Shown piece after piece: positions 9,287 through 19,892 of a stretch of DNA of 64,000 bases. This DNA is from Aphanocapsa sp. GSE-SYN-MK-11-07L (GTDB lineage Bacteria; Cyanobacteriota; Cyanobacteriia; Thermosynechococcales; Thermosynechococcaceae). The stretch is taken from contig JAHHGS010000022.1 in NCBI GenBank assembly GCA_019359715.1, positions 1 through 64,000 of the forward strand, read 5' to 3'. The notes beneath the pieces are model-generated. The model searched no databases. It saw nothing but the letters and a program-made list of their open reading frames with translations, and was not told the origin of the DNA. The position numbers and the translations under genes were made by a program. Position 1 is the stretch's first letter. Every line of letters begins with the position of its first letter.

Positions 9287-11275
9287 ATGTCTTTTACCGC
9301 AGAGCAGCTTCAGTCAGTTATGGGGGGGAGCCAGGAGAACCGGATTGAGGGGCTTCGGCAGTTGTTGGCTTATCCCTTGAAGCAGCGCGACCCGGAGGGT
9401 TCGCGGTTTTGGTATTTGCGACCAGGGGCAGATGAAGGTGAGGCGCAGGATACCTGCCCGATCGCTGTTGGGTTTTACTCGGAATTGAATCAATCCACAG
9501 ATGGAGAGGTCAAACAATTTTTGACGGCTGACGATCAGCAGAACGAAATTTATGGACATTACACCCAGCGGATTGGATCGAATCAACCTGTGATGTATCT
9601 GCTCCTTCCAGATGTTGAAGGTTTGGGTCGGGTGGCGATGGTTCTTCCGTCTGAGGGAAAGCTACGGCAGCGTCAGATTCAATCTTTTGCTTGGACGGAT
9701 CGAGATCTACAGGCACGGCTCAATCGATTGAGTCAAGGTGAACTGGCTCGAACTAACCGGATTCAGGAAAAGGCGTTGTCGGTTATCCCTCTGGTGGAGT
9801 GGGCGTTTTATAAGCCGATCGCAACCGCGAAGGAATTGGCGACAAAACTAGCGGAGGTGTCTCGCAAAATTGAGCAAGCGATTCCGACTGTCTATGACGC
9901 AGAGCGATCGGACGGATATCTCCATACCTTGCTGACTAGCTTTAAGCGAGAACTGCTACCGACGCTGAAGCTAAAGCCAGACAACGATAAGGACTACAGC
10001 TTTTCTGACATCTATGCTCAAACTATTGCCTATGGGTTGTTCACTGCCAGGGTTTTTAGCTACACCGTTGATGAACGCAAGCGTCAAGAAGATCAAGACC
10101 CGGAACGCAAGGAGACAGACTTCAACCGTCAAAATGCCTGGGAACGATTACCTGAAACCAATCCTTTTTTAAGGCGGCTATTCCGAGATGTGTCTCAGCA
10201 GCCGATCGCGGAGTTAGGCGAAGACTTGGCAGACGCGATCGCCGAAGTCTTCAGTATTCTTAGGGCTGCCAAGATGGATGCAATTTTGGCAGATTTTCGC
10301 GCCAAGATGAACCGCGAAGACATCGTAATTCGGTTCTATGAGGACTTTTTAGCCGCCTACAAGCCCAAAATGCGAGAGCGGCGCGGGGTTTACTATACGC
10401 CAGAGCCAGTGGTTTCTTACATGGTTCGGTCTGTTGATATTTTGCTGAGGTCGAAGTTTGATAAGCCGTTGGGGTTGGCTGACCCAGAGGTGATGATTCT
10501 TGACCCTGCCTGTGGAACGGGAACGTTTTTGCTGTGGATTTTTCAAGAGATTCATCGCAAGTTTCAGGAGAACCCAGACCTGCTGACGGTTGGCTTAGAG
10601 GATCAATCGTGGTCGGGGTATGTGAAAGAGCGGTTGTTGCCTCGCATTTTTGGGTTTGAGTTGCTGATGGCTCCCTATGCGATCGCCCATCTAAAACTAG
10701 GCTTATTTTTAGAAGAAACTGGCTACGAATTCAATAGCGGCAAACGGCTGGGAGTTTACCTGACGAATACGTTGGATGAAGCCTTCCAAAAGTCAGAATC
10801 CCTATTTGAAGAATTTATTGCCGAAGAATCAGATCAGGCGGCAGAAATCAAGCGATACAAACCTATCATGGTGGTGGTGGGCAATCCGCCCTATTCTGGT
10901 CATTCAGCAAATAAAAACCCTTGGATTGAAGGTTTAGTGAAAGACTATTATCAAGTTGATGGTCAACCTTTAGGAGAGAAGAATCCCAAATGGTTGCAGG
11001 ATGATTATGTTAAATTTCTGCGTTTTGGGCAGTGGCGCATCGATCAAACCCATCAGGGTATCTTGGCGTTTATCACGAATCATGGCTATCTGGATAATCC
11101 GACTTTTCGGGGAATGCGTCAGAGTTTGGAAAAATCTTTTGATCAAATCTACGTCATGGATTTGCACGGTAATACCAAGAAAAAAGAGATATCACCAGAT
11201 GGTTCTAAGGATGAAAATGTGTTTGATATTCAGCAAGGTGTATCGATCAGTTTAATGCTCAAAAAAGGAGTTTAA
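9287..11275 (+). CDS. Type ISP-like adenine DNA methyltransferase, N-terminal piece (split gene)
   Basis: 662 residues. An N-terminal helical region of unknown role (about 1-330) precedes an N6-adenine methyltransferase core. MRERRGVYYTPEPVVSYMVR opens it, motif I is DPACGTGTF (about residue 405) and motif IV is NPPY (about 533). The protein ends after VSISLMLKKGV, in the middle of the usual type ISP fold, where intact homologues continue into IYHA-like residues. That continuation is the 411-residue protein at 12115. Unlike classical type ISP enzymes there is no Mrr nuclease or helicase in the chain; the helicase may be supplied by the SNF2 protein at 15342. Whether the two halves assemble is unknown. 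Confidence 0.85.
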   Translation: MSFTAEQLQSVMGGSQENRIEGLRQLLAYPLKQRDPEGSRFWYLRPGADEGEAQDTCPIAVGFYSELNQSTDGEVKQFLTADDQQNEIYGHYTQRIGSNQPVMYLLLPDVEGLGRVAMVLPSEGKLRQRQIQSFAWTDRDLQARLNRLSQGELARTNRIQEKALSVIPLVEWAFYKPIATAKELATKLAEVSRKIEQAIPTVYDAERSDGYLHTLLTSFKRELLPTLKLKPDNDKDYSFSDIYAQTIAYGLFTARVFSYTVDERKRQEDQDPERKETDFNRQNAWERLPETNPFLRRLFRDVSQQPIAELGEDLADAIAEVFSILRAAKMDAILADFRAKMNREDIVIRFYEDFLAAYKPKMRERRGVYYTPEPVVSYMVRSVDILLRSKFDKPLGLADPEVMILDPACGTGTFLLWIFQEIHRKFQENPDLLTVGLEDQSWSGYVKERLLPRIFGFELLMAPYAIAHLKLGLFLEETGYEFNSGKRLGVYLTNTLDEAFQKSESLFEEFIAEESDQAAEIKRYKPIMVVVGNPPYSGHSANKNPWIEGLVKDYYQVDGQPLGEKNPKWLQDDYVKFLRFGQWRIDQTHQGILAFITNHGYLDNPTFRGMRQSLEKSFDQIYVMDLHGNTKKKEISPDGSKDENVFDIQQGVSISLMLKKGV

Positions 11276-11279
11276 TAGT

Positions 11280-11525
11280 ATGGCCTCACAGCAAGTGGTT
11301 CAGCCATCAAGCAAGGTTAAAGAGATTATTTTTTTAGTTGAAGAAGATGTTGAAGGTGGTTATTTTGCTCAGGCTTTAGGGGAATCGATCTTCACCCAGG
11401 CTGATGATCTTGAAGCTCTGCGATTGATGGTAAAAGATGCTGTGGAGTGTCATTTTCTGGCAGAAAGCGATCGCCCGCAGCTCATTCGGCTACATATTGT
11501 GCGGGATGAGATGTTTGCTTTATGA
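11280..11525 (+). CDS. hicB: HicB-like antitoxin
   Basis: 81 residues in the HicB/DUF1902 partial-RNase-H fold: IIFLVEEDVEGGYFAQALGESIFTQADDLEAL followed by a helix and an RLHIVRDEM strand. HicB proteins neutralise the HicA mRNA interferase. AAGGAG at 11265-11270, inside the end of the methyltransferase gene, serves as its ribosome site. Its TGA stop overlaps the ATG of a truncated hicA (ATGA). Because HicA is cut short, this looks like an orphaned antitoxin. The other common product name for such proteins is DUF1902 domain protein. Confidence 0.75.
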   Translation: MASQQVVQPSSKVKEIIFLVEEDVEGGYFAQALGESIFTQADDLEALRLMVKDAVECHFLAESDRPQLIRLHIVRDEMFAL

Positions 11526-11599: not shown

Positions 11600-11794
11600 A
11601 TGACATCAAAAGAATTAGTTATTCAAGAATTAGAAAAAATCCCTGAAAATTTGCTCACCGAAGTCTTAGATTTCATCCAATTTCTAACCCAAAAATACTT
11701 GAAGGAAAAATTAGAAACCCATCTATTAAGTGAATCTGCACTAGGGAAAGACTGGCTCACTGCTGAGGAAGATCAAGCATGGCAAGATTTGTAA
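11600..11794 (+). CDS. DUF2281-type antitoxin
   Basis: 64 residues with AAGGAG 10 bases upstream. The sequence TSKELVIQELEKIPENLLTEVLDFIQFLTQKY is the typical helical core of DUF2281-type small proteins, which commonly sit just before PIN or MazF/PemK toxins. It ends in an acidic, Trp-containing tail likely to contact the toxin. Its last 16 bases overlap the start of the MazF-like gene, implying translational coupling. Confidence 0.75.
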   Translation: MTSKELVIQELEKIPENLLTEVLDFIQFLTQKYLKEKLETHLLSESALGKDWLTAEEDQAWQDL

Positions 11795-12111
11795 AAGGTG
11801 ATGTGGTAGTGGTTCCCTTTCCCTTCTCTGATTTAACTCAGACTAAACGCCGCCCAGCGCTTGTGGTTGCACCCTTGACCGGAAGTGATATGATTTTATG
11901 TCAGATTACTAGTCAGACTGTTCGTGATGACTATACACTCACAATTACAGAAAATGATTTTGCTTCTGGACGCTTAAATCAAGTCAGTAATATTCGTCCT
12001 AATCGTATTTTCACCGCTGATCAGGGCATTATTCTCTATTCAGTTGGGCAACTCAAGCCTGAAGTCTTAGAGCAGGTCATCACTAAAATTATTGACATTT
12101 TGAGAGGGTAG
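11779..12111 (+). CDS. MazF/PemK-type endoribonuclease toxin
   Basis: 110 residues, the usual size. The N-terminus KGDVVVVPFPFSDLTQTKRRPALVVA is the PemK/MazF signature. It includes the loop and the Arg-Pro-Ala-Leu segment, followed by the SQTVRDDYTLTITENDF strand region and NIRPNRIFTAD. MazF enzymes cleave single-stranded RNA at short motifs. It is coupled to the DUF2281 gene by overlap. Its stop codon (12109-12111) is 3 bases from the GTG of the second methyltransferase piece, so the toxin and the methyltransferase half probably share a transcript. Confidence 0.85.
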   Translation: MARFVKGDVVVVPFPFSDLTQTKRRPALVVAPLTGSDMILCQITSQTVRDDYTLTITENDFASGRLNQVSNIRPNRIFTADQGIILYSVGQLKPEVLEQVITKIIDILRG

Positions 12112-12114
12112 GCA

Positions 12115-13350
12115 GTGGTGACCAATATCTACCATGCCCATCTCTACGGAACCCGCAACAGTAAGTATGACTGGCTGCTAGGTCATGATGTGTTGTCCAC
12201 GGACTGGCAAGAAATTAAACCCCAAACCCCCTTTTATTTACTAATTCCCCAGAATACAGATTTGCTGAACGAGTATCAGCAGAGCTGGAAAATCACAGAG
12301 GTGATGCCTGTGAATGTTTTGGGTTTCCAAACTCACAGAGATCATTTTGCGATCGACTTTGACAAAGAGAAGCTTAAGCAAAGAATCTCTGAAATGAGAG
12401 ACGACAGTATTTCAGACATTGAATATGCAAAAAAATATGATGTCAAAGATAATCGTGACTGGAAAATAAGAGAAGTACGGCAGAAGATTCACAATAATTC
12501 TGACTGGGAAAACGATTTAATTCAATGTTCTTATCGACCCTTTGACAATCGTCCTTCTTATTTCAGCTATGTAGCGATGGACTGCCCCAGACGTGAGTTA
12601 CTCGATCACGTTGCAAGAAGAGATAATCTTTGTCTTAATACACTTCGCCAAACTAAAGCAGAGACTTGGAAACATACGATTGTTTCTGGGTTCCCCTCTC
12701 CAGCAGTTTATGTAGAAATTAAAGATGGTTCTAATGTCTTTCCTCTTTACCTTTACCCCGATCTCAACGAGATAACCCAAGAACGTCGCCCTAACTTCTC
12801 GTCTGAATTCCTCAAAGACCTCACCACCAAACTCGGCTGCACTCCTACCCCTGAAGCCATTTTCTATTACATTTACGCTGTTTTTCACTCCCCCACTTAC
12901 CGCGATCGCTACACTGAATTTCTCAAAATCGACTTTCCCCGTGTCCCCCTCACCAGCAATGATGAGCTTTTTCGTCAGCTTGCAACCTATGGAGAGGAAC
13001 TGGTTGCCCTGCATTTGATGAAATCTCCCAGACTCGATACGCTTGTTACTCAGTTTGTAGACGCGGGGGGCGATCGCACGGTTGACCCGGGACATCCGAA
13101 ATATGACGAGCATTCCAACAGCGTTCTGATTAACAAGAAGGGAGACAAATTTACCGGAGTCCCCAAAGCGGTTTGGGAGTTTTACATTGGCGGCTATCAA
13201 GTCTGTCAGAAATGGCTGAAAGACCGCAAAGGACGAACCCTCACCCCAGAAGACATTACCCACTATCAACGCATCGTGGTCGCCCTTCAGGAAACCATCC
13301 GCCTGATGCAGCAGATTGATGCAGCCATTCCAGGCTGGCCCATTGAGTAG
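12115..13350 (+). CDS. Type ISP-like methyltransferase, C-terminal specificity piece (split gene)
   Basis: 411 residues from a GTG with GAGAGGGTAGG just upstream. It begins IYHAHLYGTRNSKYDWLLGHDV, which is where type ISP C-terminal specificity regions follow the catalytic core. The segment YRPFDNRPSYFSYVAMDCPRREL is the typical border to the target-recognition region, and SGFPSPAVYVEIKDGS and the final PKAVWEFYIGGYQVCQKWLKDRKGR are family hallmarks. It is the missing C-terminal half of the protein at 9287. The two halves lie in different frames and are separated by 839 bases of TA genes, so a single frameshift cannot restore one chain. Confidence 0.85.
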   Translation: MVTNIYHAHLYGTRNSKYDWLLGHDVLSTDWQEIKPQTPFYLLIPQNTDLLNEYQQSWKITEVMPVNVLGFQTHRDHFAIDFDKEKLKQRISEMRDDSISDIEYAKKYDVKDNRDWKIREVRQKIHNNSDWENDLIQCSYRPFDNRPSYFSYVAMDCPRRELLDHVARRDNLCLNTLRQTKAETWKHTIVSGFPSPAVYVEIKDGSNVFPLYLYPDLNEITQERRPNFSSEFLKDLTTKLGCTPTPEAIFYYIYAVFHSPTYRDRYTEFLKIDFPRVPLTSNDELFRQLATYGEELVALHLMKSPRLDTLVTQFVDAGGDRTVDPGHPKYDEHSNSVLINKKGDKFTGVPKAVWEFYIGGYQVCQKWLKDRKGRTLTPEDITHYQRIVVALQETIRLMQQIDAAIPGWPIE

Positions 13351-13360
13351 CGAGGATTTT

Positions 13361-13699
13361 ATGATGAAGTTACCCAAGGGCGATCAGGCTCAACTCGGCG
13401 ATAAACTTGAACGCTACGTTCTCAACCCGCAGCATCCTAAAGGAAAAGATAAAGCAACATTGTTCAAAAATCGATTAGGAATCACATTAGAAAACAAGGA
13501 AATTCTAGAAAATATACTTTTGGACGTTGCGATCAATCAGGAGGCAATTATTTACAAACAAGATAGATATGGAATTCAGTACGATATTAAGTTTTCGATG
13601 ACAACTGAAGTTGGAAAATCATGGGTTGTATCGTGCTGGATTATTCGCGCTGGCGAAGACTTTCCTAGATTAACAAATACCTATCCTATCAATAAATAA
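13361..13699 (+). CDS. DUF6883-like small protein, copy 1
   Basis: 112 residues from the ATG at 13361 (GCGAGG upstream), starting 11 bases after the methyltransferase piece. The sequence KLERYVLNPQHPKGKDKATLFKNRLG and the final SCWIIRAGEDFPRLTNTYPI match what I know as DUF6883, a small domain often seen next to DUF4926 proteins. Function is unknown. The same domain recurs at 14995. The immediate downstream gene is a DUF4926 protein, so the pair is likely a two-gene unit. Confidence 0.65.
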   Translation: MMKLPKGDQAQLGDKLERYVLNPQHPKGKDKATLFKNRLGITLENKEILENILLDVAINQEAIIYKQDRYGIQYDIKFSMTTEVGKSWVVSCWIIRAGEDFPRLTNTYPINK

Positions 13700-13710: not shown

Positions 13711-13950
13711 ATGACATTCAAAGAATATGACATTGTTGCCCTAAAATCTGGCATCCAAGCTGTTCATAAAGAGAATCAGCAACCTATTGTTCTCCAACCT
13801 GGACAAGTTGGAACAGTAGTCATGAATTTCAATGATGAAGCTTACCTCATTGACTTTTCCGATGCCCAAGGCATCACCTATGTCATGGAAACTATTCCTG
13901 GTAATCAGCTTATGTTACTTCACTATGAACCCACATCGGTTGCCGCTTAA
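13711..13950 (+). CDS. DUF4926-like small protein
   Basis: 79 residues, 11 bases after the DUF6883 gene, with a ribosome site AAGGAG at about 13699-13704. The fold is an SH3-like small beta barrel by sequence pattern: YDIVALKSGI, then QPGQVGTVVMNFNDEAYLIDFSD and a final TIPGNQLMLL. The same domain opens the 1516-residue helicase at 15342. Function is unknown; the repeated pairing with DUF6883 suggests that the two interact. Confidence 0.65.
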   Translation: MTFKEYDIVALKSGIQAVHKENQQPIVLQPGQVGTVVMNFNDEAYLIDFSDAQGITYVMETIPGNQLMLLHYEPTSVAA

Positions 13951-14033
13951 CTTCAAGATTAGCTGTAGTGACGGTGAATAGATAACCGTTCCTTGACTCA
14001 TGGATATTTTATTAACTGAAGGAGATCAAAACC

Positions 14034-14282
14034 ATGACACCAATTGAACTCAGACAAAGAGGCTATCAGGCGTTAGTTGATTCTTTGGGAGCGATCGATG
14101 CCATCTTGTTTCTACAGCAAGCAGGTTGGGGTGTTGGTAACTACACCGCAGAGCGGCATCAATGGCTTTCCCCAGTTACACGCGATGAATTTTGGCAAGA
14201 TATTCAGCGAATTCGTGCCAGAAAAGCTAACTTGCCAGTGCAAGCGACCCAGCAGGAAACAAGCGATGAAAACGCAAAATGA
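14034..14282 (+). CDS. Unknown small protein, tandem family copy A
   Basis: 82 residues with AAGGAG upstream. I do not recognise a named domain. The family pattern, shared by four neighbours, is G..ALVD.LG..DAI.F.QQ....G.G.YT.ERHQWL followed by an acidic/Trp helix (FWQDI). Similar small proteins occur in cyanobacteria. Its first 98 bases differ from copy D (14762) at only one position, so these two copies are a recent duplicate or have been converted. Its end overlaps the start of copy B by 17 bases. Confidence 0.7.
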   Translation: MTPIELRQRGYQALVDSLGAIDAILFLQQAGWGVGNYTAERHQWLSPVTRDEFWQDIQRIRARKANLPVQATQQETSDENAK

Positions 14283-14493
14283 AGTTCTAGATAGCGGATA
14301 TAAAGCTTTGGTTAATGCCTTAGGAGTAGTCGATGCGATTCGATTTATTCAGCACTTCAGCCCTGGTTATGGAGACTACACCAAAGAACGCCATCAATGG
14401 TTAGATAAGCTGTCGATGAATGATTTTTTGGCTGAAATGCGGAAACATAAAACAAATGACGATGCAGATAATTTTGAAGAAATTATTGAATAG
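14266..14493 (+). CDS. Unknown small protein, tandem family copy B
   Basis: 75 residues from the ATG at 14266, inside the end of copy A. It shares the pattern GYKALVNALGVVDAIRFIQ and GDYTKERHQWLDKLS with its neighbours but has a more acidic C-terminus. The overlap with copy A suggests translational coupling. A longer open frame beginning at 14077 is an out-of-frame extension through copy A and is not the real start. Confidence 0.65.
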   Translation: MKTQNEVLDSGYKALVNALGVVDAIRFIQHFSPGYGDYTKERHQWLDKLSMNDFLAEMRKHKTNDDADNFEEIIE

Positions 14494-14529
14494 AGCGATA
14501 AGAATTTAAAGCAGACCAACCACAACCTA

Positions 14530-14775
14530 ATGAAGAAAATTATGATGACCCCAGTTGAATTAAACCGCCAAGGATTAAGGGCACTCGTTGATGCGCTTGG
14601 TTATGCTGATGCAATCCGGTACATCCGACAGTTTGACAATGGCAGTGGCGACTATACCAAAGAACGCCATCAATGGCTCGATGAGCTGACCCTCGAAGAT
14701 ATTTGGGCAGACATTCAGAAACGGAAAAGCCAAGCGGATACCAATGAAGGAGGTGAAAATCATGACACCGATTGA
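14530..14775 (+). CDS. Unknown small protein, tandem family copy C
   Basis: 81 residues, or 77 from the internal ATG at 14542. Same family: GLRALVDALGYADAIRYIRQF, GDYTKERHQWLDELTLEDIWADI. It has the clearest consensus of the four. The C-terminal codons overlap the start of copy D by 14 bases, and the GGAGGTG ribosome site for copy D lies inside this gene. Confidence 0.65.
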   Translation: MKKIMMTPVELNRQGLRALVDALGYADAIRYIRQFDNGSGDYTKERHQWLDELTLEDIWADIQKRKSQADTNEGGENHDTD

Positions 14776-14995
14776 ACTCAGACAAAGAGGCTATCAGGCG
14801 TTAGTTGATTCTTTGGGAGCGATCGATGCCATCTTGTTTCTACAGCAAGCAGGTTGGGGCGTTGGGAATTACACTACCGAGCGATATCAGCGGCTCTTTC
14901 CGCTCACGCGAACCAAGTTCTGGCAAAATATTCAGTGCATTCGTGCTAGAAAAGCAAATATTGATGTAGTCGCAGTGAGCCAGCAGCCAATCTAG
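14762..14995 (+). CDS. Unknown small protein, tandem family copy D
   Basis: 77 residues from the ATG at 14762, preceded by GGAGGTG at 14749-14755. The first 98 bases are nearly identical to copy A; after that the two diverge, and in D the conserved ERHQWL has become ERYQRL, suggesting relaxed selection on this copy. Its last base overlaps the GTG start of the second DUF6883 gene. Confidence 0.65.
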   Translation: MTPIELRQRGYQALVDSLGAIDAILFLQQAGWGVGNYTTERYQRLFPLTRTKFWQNIQCIRARKANIDVVAVSQQPI

Positions 14996-15333
14996 TGAAT
15001 CAATTACCCAATTGTAAAAAATCCCTGGTTGAAGAGCAGAAGATCAGACAGTATCTTCTGGATCTCAGCCATGAGGATGGAAAAAGCAAAGCCAAGTTTT
15101 TCTTGGCGCGGGGATTTACCGTGGAACACTGGCAAGCACTCGCTCAAGCCTTGTGTCAACATGGAATTGAGAATCAAATTGCAAAGACCTTAAAAACTCC
15201 TTTTGGTCAGAAATTTATTATTGAGTGCCATCTTGCAACTCCAGATCGGCAAAACCCCTGTATCCGCACTGTTTGGATTATTGAAGACGGCAACACAATA
15301 CCTCGACTTTCAACCGCTTACCCCCATCTCTAA
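14995..15333 (+). CDS. DUF6883-like small protein, copy 2
   Basis: 112 residues starting at GTG 14995, the last base of copy D's stop codon. It shows the same plan as the protein at 13361: an IRQYLLDLSHEDGKSKAKFFLARGF opening and an RTVWIIEDGNTIPRLSTAYP ending. It lies 8 bases before the helicase gene whose first domain is DUF4926, so the DUF6883-DUF4926 pairing is repeated here with the second partner fused to a large enzyme. Confidence 0.65.
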   Translation: MNQLPNCKKSLVEEQKIRQYLLDLSHEDGKSKAKFFLARGFTVEHWQALAQALCQHGIENQIAKTLKTPFGQKFIIECHLATPDRQNPCIRTVWIIEDGNTIPRLSTAYPHL

Positions 15334-15341
15334 AGCCAGCC

Positions 15342-18300
15342 ATGATTAGAGAACACGATCGCGTTACCTTAACAGTCGATGTTCCAGAGTATGGACTCAA
15401 ACGGAACGACCAAGGCACAGTTGTGTTTGTTTATCAGCGGGGGCAGGGGTACGAGGTTGAGTTTTTTGCACCCGATGGTCGCACAAAATCAGTCGCAACC
15501 CTCTTAGCCTCTCAAGTTGGCCCGATTTTGACGAGCGATCGCCTATCTTCAGTTGGTTTGTCCTCTACGCCAAAAGCAAGTTATACCGCAGCGTCTAACA
15601 CCTTACCCTCGCTCATCCACTCCACTATTCAAGAGTTAAGCCGTCAACAGCGCCCCTATTACTTCCTCCAGAGCCACCCAGTAAAAGGAGTAGGTGGGCA
15701 ATACTGGCTGATTTTTCAGCATCGAGACGCTGACAAGGGTGGAAATTTCCTGAAAAACATCGTCTCTCTACTGGGGTTCAAAGACAAAGCTGCTCCCCAG
15801 AAGGTAATTCGGATTGATCCCAACACTGCCAAGATCTACACCTACAGTTCCCTCAAACCTGGCGATCTTCCCTCCCCCGCGCTACTCCGTACAGGCAGTC
15901 TCAAAGTCATTGAAAAATTTCTCGCCCTAGAACGTACCACTAAAGAACCAGCCCTACTCAGCGGCAGCTTCCGAGAAATTAAAGGGATCAAACGACGTTA
16001 TAACCTACCCGCACAGCTAGAGCCATACAACAAAGTAACAGCTCAGATGCTGGAACGCAGCAGCATTTACCGCCGTTCCACCGCTTACTTTGATAGTGGC
16101 GTTCTCAAACTCTATGAAGAACCCTTACAAACGATCATCAAAACCGAAGGGCAAATTCGGCTGCTGATGGACTGGCAAGGATTTACCAAACGCGCTGATG
16201 TGGCAGAACTCGAAAAACTCCACAATCCTGACTACCGTGCCCAATTCATTCAACGTACCCTACAAGAATTTCTCCAAGGGCTTGAAGAGAATGCCTTTAA
16301 TGGAACTCAAATCTTGGCTGAATTAGTGCGGTTGGGATTTCTAGACATAAAGCTGATTAAGATGAGTCAGCAAAATTCGCTTTACCACAAAAAAACAGGG
16401 ATTTTCAGCGATCGCCTCGACAATCATATTCTGCACGAAGGCTCAGATAACTTTACCCGTGCCGCGCACTCTCGTAACGCGGAAAGCGTCACCTTCCTTT
16501 ACTCTTGGGAGCAGCTTGACCAGGAAACCATTGAGCAAAGCATCCAGGAATTTGATAGGGAGTGGCAGCGTCAAGACCTTGCCTATGACTTAAATCAAGA
16601 ATTCCTCCAGCAAATTCTGCAAGAGTACGATCGCCGTGTACAGCAACGTCAGCCCAAAATTGACACTATTACGCCGCCAGAGCTACCCCCAGGTGAGATA
16701 ACCGAAGTCACCATCACCGGAGAAAACCTGGATCAGGTTGCTGGAATCACCGTCCCAGACAATGAACTTATCAACATCGCCATTACGAACCAAACCCCAG
16801 GCGAAATGATTGCTCAGGTTGAGGTAGCAGCAGAGCATCCCCCTCAACCCATCACCGAGCTGCGAGTCAAAGAAAAATCAGGCGGCGAATACGATACTTC
16901 TCTCAATCAGCCGCCCCAAGTCAGCCAGACCCTGGAGATTCCAGATTTTCCAGAAATTGAAGGCTTCAAACAGGCCGTTGAGATTATTTTGGCAGCTCAG
17001 CATGGCAAGCCAGAAGATTTTCTCTACTGGATGGCAAAGCAGCGCCCCCGTCAGTTCCAGGTAGAGCGCAGCGACCTTCTAGATCAGCTAGTCAATCAGG
17101 AAATTCTGTTTGAACATCAGAAATCAGGCGCACAGCATTGTCTACGCGTCATGCAAGACTTTGGCGTAGCCGTCTGTGCCGATGCAGTGGGGTTAGGCAA
17201 AACTCGATTGGCGGCAGCCGTCGCCCGACTCCATCGCCAGCAGTTTGAAACCGACCACGGGAGTCAGACCAAAATCGCCATCATCGCCGCCAAAAAACTT
17301 TTCCTCAACTGGGAGCGGGAAATGGCTGAGCTAGGCTTCCGTGTTAGTGAATATGAACTTTACAATAAAAACTTGATGAGTCGCAAAGGAAACGGTTTTC
17401 TAGAAGACTTTAACCGCTACGGTGGCCCTGACTTGGTGATTATTGATGAAGCCCATGAAGGGATTCGCAACTACAGAAACCTTATCCACAAGCTTTGTCT
17501 GCAAATGCAAGAACGCGATCAGCAGACGGGTAAGCAACGAAATTTCTTACTGTTAACAGCAACGCCCTGGAACAACCGTAGAGAAGACATCTACAACATT
17601 CTTCAACCCTTTCTGACGCGTCCTGAAGGTTTTGCTGACCTGGGGTTTCCGCCAGAACTAGCGCTGTGGTTTCAGAACCGCGAGACTGGGGTAGAGCAAT
17701 TTACAGATGATTCAAAACTCTTTCGTCAGACCTATCGGGAACTCTTTCTTCAGCGCACCCGCCAAATGCTCCGAGAGGCTATGCCCGACCTTAACATCTA
17801 CGCCAAGCGTCGAGCAGAGTGGCTACCTGTCCAGTTTGAGGACGCTACCGAACAGGCCCTAGAGCAAATCTTCACCCACTTTGAAACCAATCTGTATATT
17901 CCCTTTGCAGACCCGATTCGCTATCTCAAAGGTAATGCCGAGCAGAGATCGCTCCTGCAAAATCAGCGACGATTTTTTCTACAACGAGCGGAGTCGAGTA
18001 TGTATGCTCTCCGCCGCACCATCGTCAACTTCAGAAATCGGATTGTGCAGATGCAGGAGCGGCTTAGTGCTGTAGAACCCACGGCTGACGGCCTAAAAGC
18101 ATTCCTGTATCTGCACTATGGTTTTGCCTCTAAGCAAAATGAACCGATTAGCCTCATTGATTTAGACGAGAAAGAGGCTTGGGACGAAGACTACGAAGCA
18201 GAGGATGACGATGATGAGGAAAGCACTGAAACTCAAGAAATCAAACGGCAGCAGCTCCATCGCTCGATTGAGCTTGCCATTGAGGAATTACAGAAAAATC

Positions 18301-19892
18301 CAGCAGAAGCCCAGCGAATTCATCATCTGATGGAGGCTGCTTGCGAAAGCGACCTGACCCAACTCCAAGAGATTCAAGACCTCTTAGCAGACGAGTTTGT
18401 CAAAGACCATAAGCGAGAACAAGTCACCCAAAAGGTACGGGAACTCTTGAGTCAGGGTCAGAAAGTGTTGCTGATCTCTACCTTTTCAGATACGGTTCTT
18501 GACTACTACCGCTATATGACCCAAGATGCGGCGATTGCGTCTCAGGGCATTGGTATGGCGATCGGCTCAACCAAACGGTACTATCCCGATAGCTTGGATT
18601 CCAGTCACTTGAACCGAGTTGTGCAATTCTCCCCCCACACCATCTTGAAAGGCCAAAAGCAGCGTACAGGTATCAAGCGTCAGGAATTGTTTCGTCTCTT
18701 TGCCCCTGCTGCTACCTGTAAAACGAGCGCTGAGCAACCCAGTCCCACAGAAGAGCTAATGGTTTTAATTGGGTCTGAAACCTTGTCGGTGGGTCAAAAC
18801 CTCCAGGATGCCGACTACCTAATTAATATCGATCTGCCCTGGAATCCGATGACGCTAGAACAGCGCATTGGTCGGATTGACCGTCCCAAAAAGCACCATC
18901 CAGAAAATATTCATATCTACTACGCCAATAGCGAGAGCCAGCTCTTACGCCAAGCTAGCCGACTTTCTAACCTCAACAAGAAGCTGGTGGGCGAAGACTT
19001 CACCAATCCAGAGGGAGACATCAAAAACGTCACCGATGCCGATGCTTTAGGCGCTTCCATCTACGGCGATACTCTGTTTGATGATGCTATTTTGCCAGGA
19101 TACGTTGAGTTTCTACAAAGTTTAGTCAAAGCCCGACAAATAGAACAAGGGAGCCTTCAGGAAGCAGTTTACCTTGCCCAGGAAACGACCCGCGACCTCT
19201 ATACGCAGCAAGAGATTCTGCATAGCGAAGACCTCAGCCGATTACTGGAGCGCTTGGGCGAAGATTATCGAGCAAACCCGATTACCCTAGGTCGTAAAAT
19301 TGGAGAGCAAGATGAACCCACAGGACTACTGGCTTTAACGGCTCAATACTTTGGGCCAAATGGCGAAGATATCCTAGACCAGCAGCACCTGCTTTTTTGG
19401 AATGACCAAACCGGAGAACGCGATGGCTATGGCGTGGCGATCGCCACTGCCTTTAAGACTCCAGAAGCCGGAGATGTTTTCTCCGCCAAGTATCTGCTTT
19501 CCTGTGCTCAAATTCTTTATCATCAACTTGTCGCCCTCAAGCAGCAGCGAGTCGCAGAATTGACCCAGCCTGAAACTTTAGAGAACATCAATATCACCTC
19601 CGAACGCCTTAACAAAATCCAGCAGCGCATTAGCGCTTTGGATCGTTTTCCAACCGGACTAGACCGCAAGATAGTCAAAGACACCCTCAAAAAGCTAAAC
19701 CTTTGGAAAGGAATTAAGTCTGTCCAGAAATTACTGCGAGACTACACAGATGGGACAAAAGCTCAACTTGATAGTTCTGTTTTTGTGACAGAGCTAGTTA
19801 GCGACACAGACGCTCTTAATCTGATTGCCTCTGAAGGAATTAAACCCACCACCTTAAAATTTTCTCTAGCGGCTTTGTTACTTAGAGCTTGA
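15342..19892 (+). CDS. DUF4926-PLD nuclease-IPT/TIG-SNF2 helicase fusion
   Basis: 1516 residues. Domains in order: DUF4926 (about 1-63); an unknown linker; a PLD-type phosphodiesterase domain (about 215-400) with YHKK (about 347-350) and EGSDNF (about 366-371); a segment of about residues 438-525 that reads like an Ig-like IPT/TIG repeat (PPGEITEVTITGENLDQVAGI...); then a SNF2-type helicase. The helicase has Walker A DAVGLGKT (about 614-621), DEAH (about 702-705), LLTATPWNN, and the motif V/VI region SVGQNLQDADYLINIDLPWNPMTLEQRIGRIDRP. PLD plus SNF2 next to an adenine methyltransferase recalls DISARM-like and other restriction systems. No drmA or drmB homologue is present, so it is not classical DISARM. 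Role in DNA defence is inferred. Confidence 0.9.
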   Translation: MIREHDRVTLTVDVPEYGLKRNDQGTVVFVYQRGQGYEVEFFAPDGRTKSVATLLASQVGPILTSDRLSSVGLSSTPKASYTAASNTLPSLIHSTIQELSRQQRPYYFLQSHPVKGVGGQYWLIFQHRDADKGGNFLKNIVSLLGFKDKAAPQKVIRIDPNTAKIYTYSSLKPGDLPSPALLRTGSLKVIEKFLALERTTKEPALLSGSFREIKGIKRRYNLPAQLEPYNKVTAQMLERSSIYRRSTAYFDSGVLKLYEEPLQTIIKTEGQIRLLMDWQGFTKRADVAELEKLHNPDYRAQFIQRTLQEFLQGLEENAFNGTQILAELVRLGFLDIKLIKMSQQNSLYHKKTGIFSDRLDNHILHEGSDNFTRAAHSRNAESVTFLYSWEQLDQETIEQSIQEFDREWQRQDLAYDLNQEFLQQILQEYDRRVQQRQPKIDTITPPELPPGEITEVTITGENLDQVAGITVPDNELINIAITNQTPGEMIAQVEVAAEHPPQPITELRVKEKSGGEYDTSLNQPPQVSQTLEIPDFPEIEGFKQAVEIILAAQHGKPEDFLYWMAKQRPRQFQVERSDLLDQLVNQEILFEHQKSGAQHCLRVMQDFGVAVCADAVGLGKTRLAAAVARLHRQQFETDHGSQTKIAIIAAKKLFLNWEREMAELGFRVSEYELYNKNLMSRKGNGFLEDFNRYGGPDLVIIDEAHEGIRNYRNLIHKLCLQMQERDQQTGKQRNFLLLTATPWNNRREDIYNILQPFLTRPEGFADLGFPPELALWFQNRETGVEQFTDDSKLFRQTYRELFLQRTRQMLREAMPDLNIYAKRRAEWLPVQFEDATEQALEQIFTHFETNLYIPFADPIRYLKGNAEQRSLLQNQRRFFLQRAESSMYALRRTIVNFRNRIVQMQERLSAVEPTADGLKAFLYLHYGFASKQNEPISLIDLDEKEAWDEDYEAEDDDDEESTETQEIKRQQLHRSIELAIEELQKNPAEAQRIHHLMEAACESDLTQLQEIQDLLADEFVKDHKREQVTQKVRELLSQGQKVLLISTFSDTVLDYYRYMTQDAAIASQGIGMAIGSTKRYYPDSLDSSHLNRVVQFSPHTILKGQKQRTGIKRQELFRLFAPAATCKTSAEQPSPTEELMVLIGSETLSVGQNLQDADYLINIDLPWNPMTLEQRIGRIDRPKKHHPENIHIYYANSESQLLRQASRLSNLNKKLVGEDFTNPEGDIKNVTDADALGASIYGDTLFDDAILPGYVEFLQSLVKARQIEQGSLQEAVYLAQETTRDLYTQQEILHSEDLSRLLERLGEDYRANPITLGRKIGEQDEPTGLLALTAQYFGPNGEDILDQQHLLFWNDQTGERDGYGVAIATAFKTPEAGDVFSAKYLLSCAQILYHQLVALKQQRVAELTQPETLENINITSERLNKIQQRISALDRFPTGLDRKIVKDTLKKLNLWKGIKSVQKLLRDYTDGTKAQLDSSVFVTELVSDTDALNLIASEGIKPTTLKFSLAALLLRA

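Follow-up and report, generated by a model that had tools for sequence, protein, structure and literature searches.

Architecture of the locus

The window, a 64,000-nucleotide stretch of the Aphanocapsa sp. GSE-SYN-MK-11-07L genome, contains four intact tandem + strand open reading frames of one small-protein family, here called copies A to D (Table 1). A single profile built from A–D and their relatives matches all four with E-values from 1e-24 to 3e-31, which bears out the family assignment made in the earlier note on this DNA. Pairwise identities are about 34–49%, rising to 78% for A and D, and 20 columns are invariant across the array. The motif G..ALV..LG..DAI and G.YT.ER.Q.L is among the features that A–D share without exception; the longer ERHQWL form previously ascribed to all copies does not extend to D, which reads ERYQRL, has lost the conserved H and W and has diverged in its 3′ part. 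Motif and reading frame are retained in three of the four copies (A, B and C). Neighboring frames overlap at A/B (17 nt), at C/D (14 nt) and between D and the DUF6883 gene that follows it (1 nt). Between B and C there is a gap of 36 or 51 nt, depending on the start of C, and so the overlapping starts and stops described earlier do not run through the whole array. No promoter or terminator matches were found on the forward strand between positions 13300 and 15400.

Table 1. Genes and tracts in and around the A–D array (positions within the window)
Feature	Position	Strand	Remarks
Methyltransferase N-terminal half, Type ISP/IIG-like	9287-11275	+	cut off from recognition half
HicB-like gene	11280-11525	+	without HicA; within methyltransferase split
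DUF2281	11600-11794	+	within methyltransferase split
MazF/PemK toxin	11779-12111	+	within methyltransferase split
Methyltransferase C-terminal Type ISP specificity half	12115-13350	+	PF18135, E 2e-92
DUF6883	13316-13699	+	with DUF4926, a recurrent two-gene module
DUF4926	13711-13950	+	with DUF6883, a recurrent two-gene module
Shared tract, first copy	14017-14131	+	ribosome-binding site and first 98 bases of A; conversion/recombination footprint
Copy A	14034-14282	+	82 aa; full family consensus, intact; overlaps B by 17 nt
Copy B	14266-14493	+	75 aa
Copy C	14545-14775 (alternative start 14530)	+	76 aa
Shared tract, second copy	14745-14859	+	start of D
Copy D	14762-14995	+	77 aa
Second DUF6883	14995-15333	+	overlaps D by 1 nt
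PLD + SNF2 helicase	15342-19892	+	N-terminal DUF4926 fusion

The array occupies a slot between a methyltransferase and a PLD/SNF2 helicase. The methyltransferase, which also matches N6_Mtase and REase_MTase_IIG, is one frame of approximately 1050–1100 aa in most cyanobacteria; here it is split at the junction of its methyltransferase and specificity parts, and about 840 nt separate the two pieces. Three other genomes (G286, G022 and G289) have comparable splits containing HicB or HicBA. Homologues of the helicase are present in 12 of 386 cyanobacterial genomes sampled, and the fusion to DUF4926 was seen in no other helicase homologue that we found. Elsewhere, DUF6883 and DUF4926 form a two-gene module (20 best matches checked), and the fusion could link the helicase to a toxin-like partner; the open literature offered nothing useful on either domain. 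The helicase scored far under the NCBIfam cut-off as a DrmD-like protein of DISARM, and none of the scanned operon proteins matched another Drm protein, the DrmA, DrmB and DrmC core included.

Distribution and predicted fold of the family

Family members are present in 58 of the 386 sampled genomes, are carried by seven plasmids, and also occur in Oscillospiraceae, Treponema, Methanoregula and others. Pfam and NCBIfam gave 0 matches, whether A–D were searched singly or a 38-member family set was used, PADLOC gave no significant match for A–D, and PDB sequences gave nothing above noise for the family. Curated antitoxin profiles (VapB-type and other named families) did not match family members either. 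A phage origin of A–D was rejected, as tblastn against phage records and viral contigs returned no match. An AlphaFold model of moderate confidence has four helices (pLDDT 76, pTM 0.38), and the proteins are probably all-helical. Searching with this model returned only noise: it matched no PDB entry and resembled no recognized antitoxin or DNA-binding fold.

Linkage to a PIN-domain nuclease

We found that the constant companion of the family is a nuclease gene. Among 152 upstream neighbors of family members, 116 belong to one cluster of proteins of about 150–160 aa, identified as PIN-domain by Pfam matches and carrying invariant D and E columns that include D7, E53, D99 and D118. With a profile of this cluster, 123 of 170 family members have a PIN gene upstream, mostly in overlapping frames. 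After removal of duplicate loci, a PIN gene lies within 60 nt of the start of 107 of 164 members, compared to 1 of 1772 other genes at the same loci. Conversely, all 48 of the strongest PIN matches in the 386 cyanobacterial genomes have a family member directly downstream (coordinates matched by eye), a figure biased toward linkage because the profile derives from PIN genes already linked to the family. The linkage extends to Bacillota, Spirochaetota and archaea, while roughly one third of members have no PIN gene directly upstream.

The usual order is toxin gene first and partner second, with overlapping frames; together with the tight linkage, this matches the organization of a toxin-antitoxin module. 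The family is therefore a probable PIN-partner, and candidate antitoxin, family, new as far as the searched libraries and open papers go. The linkage of the genes suggests that the family protein would neutralize the PIN protein. Cassettes of this kind also enter other restriction operons: on a Planktothrix plasmid one lies between hsdS and hsdR of a Type I operon, and in G395 one is similarly placed in a Type I restriction operon (L102, L197).

These data bear on the earlier proposal that A–D could act on the neighboring helicase-nuclease, as a set of inhibitors or specificity factors. The genes do share an operon, D overlaps by 1 nt the gene that precedes the helicase, and the family occurs in other restriction operons as well. 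However, most family members are distant from the helicase, most helicase homologues occur without the family, and two genomes have the helicase about 90 nt from the methyltransferase and no gene in the gap. The mutual absence of the two makes a helicase role unlikely, and with a PIN nuclease as the constant partner we regard the proposal as very improbable.

Orphan copies from three lineages

Pairing with a PIN toxin holds for the family, but not for the window copies themselves. The window's genome (estimated to be 99.5% complete) contains no PIN gene of the partner type at E-values up to 1, and consequently A–D are orphans. The end of A, DENAK, resembles that of some PIN proteins, and we considered it as leftover PIN coding sequence; it was not counted, because these residues follow from the way A overlaps the beginning of B.

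A tree of 159 family members, built from few columns and with many weak forks, gives fairly clear key placements. The nearest neighbor of copy B is the first Petrachloros copy (L049; support 99/83), inside a 33-row clade (100/97); this relative is PIN-linked, and over the aligned core the two are 88% identical in amino acids. A and D group (100/96) with a copy from G394, which falls in the same taxonomic family as the window's genome, inside a 28-row clade (100/92). Copy C groups with other PIN-linked copies at weaker support, its nearest relatives being those of G394 (L196) and L044. Each of the three tree groups holding B, C and A/D is mostly PIN-linked. By placing B, C and A/D in three intermixed lineages, the tree rules out a simple four-fold tandem amplification.

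DNA alignments point the same way. The window's C–D segment aligns over 321 nt, at 80%, with a PIN-C-D cassette of G394, and its B–C segment aligns over 464 nt, at 70%, with the Petrachloros PIN-B-C cassette; copy A occupies the position that PIN holds in PIN-B-C cassettes. Taken together, the lineages and the alignments indicate that the array combines, as a mosaic, segments that occur elsewhere with PIN. The earlier note had reasoned that the same four-copy order, unchanged at unrelated loci, would mean a merely conserved operon. We found that order nowhere else; only the sub-orders B–C and C–D recur.

A further question is whether the orphans still do anything. They may be no more than the decaying remains of PIN modules, now without function, in which case the intact frames of A–C would reflect a recent loss of the toxin. 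D lacks two conserved residues, and in a comparison of 3′ halves with the G394 relative it is further diverged than A (56% versus 69%). The A/D-type copy of G394 is frameshifted, the orthologous copy of G286 is a pseudogene, and antitoxin-like genes that lack a toxin are common in this operon (G051, G286, G289 and G235). Against decay, the consensus motif and the frame persist in three of four copies, and the overlaps are typical of a translated operon. The dN/dS ratios of B and C against relatives are 0.03–0.18, and A–C retain the family consensus; such low ratios are compatible with recent toxin loss or with continued use, and may mostly record the time before the loss. We consider decay a serious possibility, at somewhat less than even odds.

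Alternatively, the retained proteins could serve as a bank of antidotes that neutralizes the PIN toxins of incoming plasmids and mobile modules, protecting the cell from addiction. PIN-family modules are present on cyanobacterial plasmids, and several lineages side by side would broaden the range of toxins covered, but no plasmid with such a PIN gene is known from this strain. This use of the array is conceivable, though we hold it to be rather doubtful.

A shared tract in copies A and D

Copies A and D differ at only one position, base 9, in their first 98 bases, as the earlier note had observed. The near-identity begins 17 nt upstream of each start codon, in the ribosome-binding site (14017 and 14745). 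Synonymous divergence is 0.05 over the first 32 codons and saturated in the remainder (pS 0.82), with 4 of 114 differing sites in the former and 29 of 99 in the latter (Fisher p = 1.8e-7). Coding constraint was ruled out as the source of this likeness, because synonymous sites are nearly identical in the 5′ tract alone; the same confinement indicates that the conversion or recombination tract is real.

The recent duplication or gene conversion read from these bases earlier is thereby upheld, and a recent conversion or crossover between A and D is the well-supported interpretation of the sequences. The tract would record either a later homogenization of the two copies or an insertion that entered, through recombination, at their common 5′ end.

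The cargo slot in related operons

In orthologous operons, the slot between methyltransferase and helicase holds very different contents. It is nearly empty in G233 and G042, where methyltransferase and helicase are about 90 nt apart or less. In G087 and G155 it holds UPF0175 and a PIN-like DUF3368 protein, in G051 a lone UPF0175-like gene (a weak match) and in G125 one uncharacterized gene. A DSR2-like SIR2 defense system split over two genes fills the slot of G145 (L217 1167-5227), and several toxin-antitoxin modules fill those of G131 and G235. The closest orthologous operon, that of G286, carries a broken A-type copy directly after DUF4926, at the place where A starts in the window. Counts of intact family copies run from 0 (plus the pseudogene) in G286 to 1 in G235, 2 in G131 and G394 and 4 in the window, and the variation in copy number between loci anticipated by the earlier note is therefore present.

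Some slots contain repeats of the methyltransferase's own 3′ end. Five such copies, with stop codon and ribosome-binding site, lie between modules in G131 (L203 5112-7996), and four, one of them partial, lie between modules in G235 (L202 10545-13606). The same 3′ end, without the rest of the enzyme, also precedes one PIN-family cassette each in G005 and G394 (PIN-C-D in the latter).

Two of these genomes have further rearrangements. In G131, DUF6883-DUF4926 comes after an intact methyltransferase; next is a PIN-like module and, last, another specificity half that stands on its own (L203 13010-17589, L208 8206-9516), an arrangement that suggests exchangeable specificity. In G286 (L198 8210-9690), two copies of the HicB start flank a DUF433-like gene and a piece of the specificity half, which is another insertion footprint.

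The recurrence of cargo raises the idea that the slot modules act as guards, making loss or inhibition of the operon harmful through toxins that respond to its damage; here the PIN guard would have been lost, leaving just its partners, and MazF and DUF6883 may still be active as guards. Toxin-antitoxin modules and a DSR2-like system are repeatedly embedded in the same operon, DarTG2 inside a Type I system offers a precedent (PMC12255303), and DUF4926 is fused to the helicase beside its usual partner DUF6883. Yet at least two orthologous operons have a near-empty slot, and we judge a guard function unlikely.

Proposed origin of the array

We propose that A–D are the surviving antitoxin-type mosaic of lost PIN modules, lying in a cargo slot that gains toxin-antitoxin modules, and we assign this reading a probability of roughly 0.74. 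In a normal module of two or three genes, the small protein would keep a PIN ribonuclease-like toxin in check. A defense operon of Type ISP-like methyltransferase and PLD/SNF2 helicase would gain such modules, sometimes leaving repeats of the methyltransferase 3′ end. The PIN gene would then have been lost from the window's genome while antitoxin-type genes of three lineages (B, C and A/D) remained; A would have moved into the PIN position before B, and A and D would have been homogenized by recombination. We infer that the retained copies are leftover antidotes rather than proteins with a new role, perhaps kept as antidotes. A more specific history, in which modules were added serially at copied gene ends, and toxins were later lost while the antitoxin lineages were kept as a set of antidotes to the PIN toxins of mobile elements, appears improbable in its full form.

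Comparison with known systems

The closest parallel is with Type II toxin-antitoxin systems that use PIN (VapC-like) toxins. As in these systems, a small co-directional partner overlaps the PIN gene, the acidic residues of PIN are kept, and the modules occur on plasmids and in restriction operons. The differences are that the toxin gene comes first, that the partner matches no known antitoxin family, and that the toxin is absent from the window. PIN-associated antitoxins were surveyed in 2009 by Makarova et al., whose survey lists DUF433, COG2886, DUF104, COG1753 and MerR-like families and describes DUF433 and COG2886 PIN pairs as common in cyanobacteria (PMC2701414). These families are partners of PIN nucleases, like the A–D family, but the latter matches neither their Pfam models nor any others and has no recognized antitoxin fold.

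Toxin-antitoxin genes nested in a restriction operon are also known from DarTG2, which lies between hsdS and hsdR (PMC12255303). In contrast, the present operon holds several unrelated modules, including some inside the split methyltransferase, and in two genomes it has repeats of the methyltransferase 3′ end. Synechocystis pSYSG has an island that combines toxin-antitoxin modules and Type I genes (PMC4963859). The methyltransferase itself resembles Type ISP/IIG enzymes in joining an N6 methyltransferase core to a Type ISP C-terminal specificity domain, but its chain is split here and in a few other genomes, usually with toxin-antitoxin genes inside.

As far as the searched libraries and open papers reach, three elements are new: the partner family, the toxin-less mosaic and the methyltransferase-end repeats between modules. 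The first is a candidate PIN antitoxin family that spans cyanobacteria, Bacillota, spirochaetes and archaea. The second clearly illustrates the retention of antitoxin-type genes as orphans after the putative loss of a toxin, with empty and filled versions of the slot available for comparison. Finally, the repeated methyltransferase ends make the entry of toxin-antitoxin modules into defense operons directly testable.
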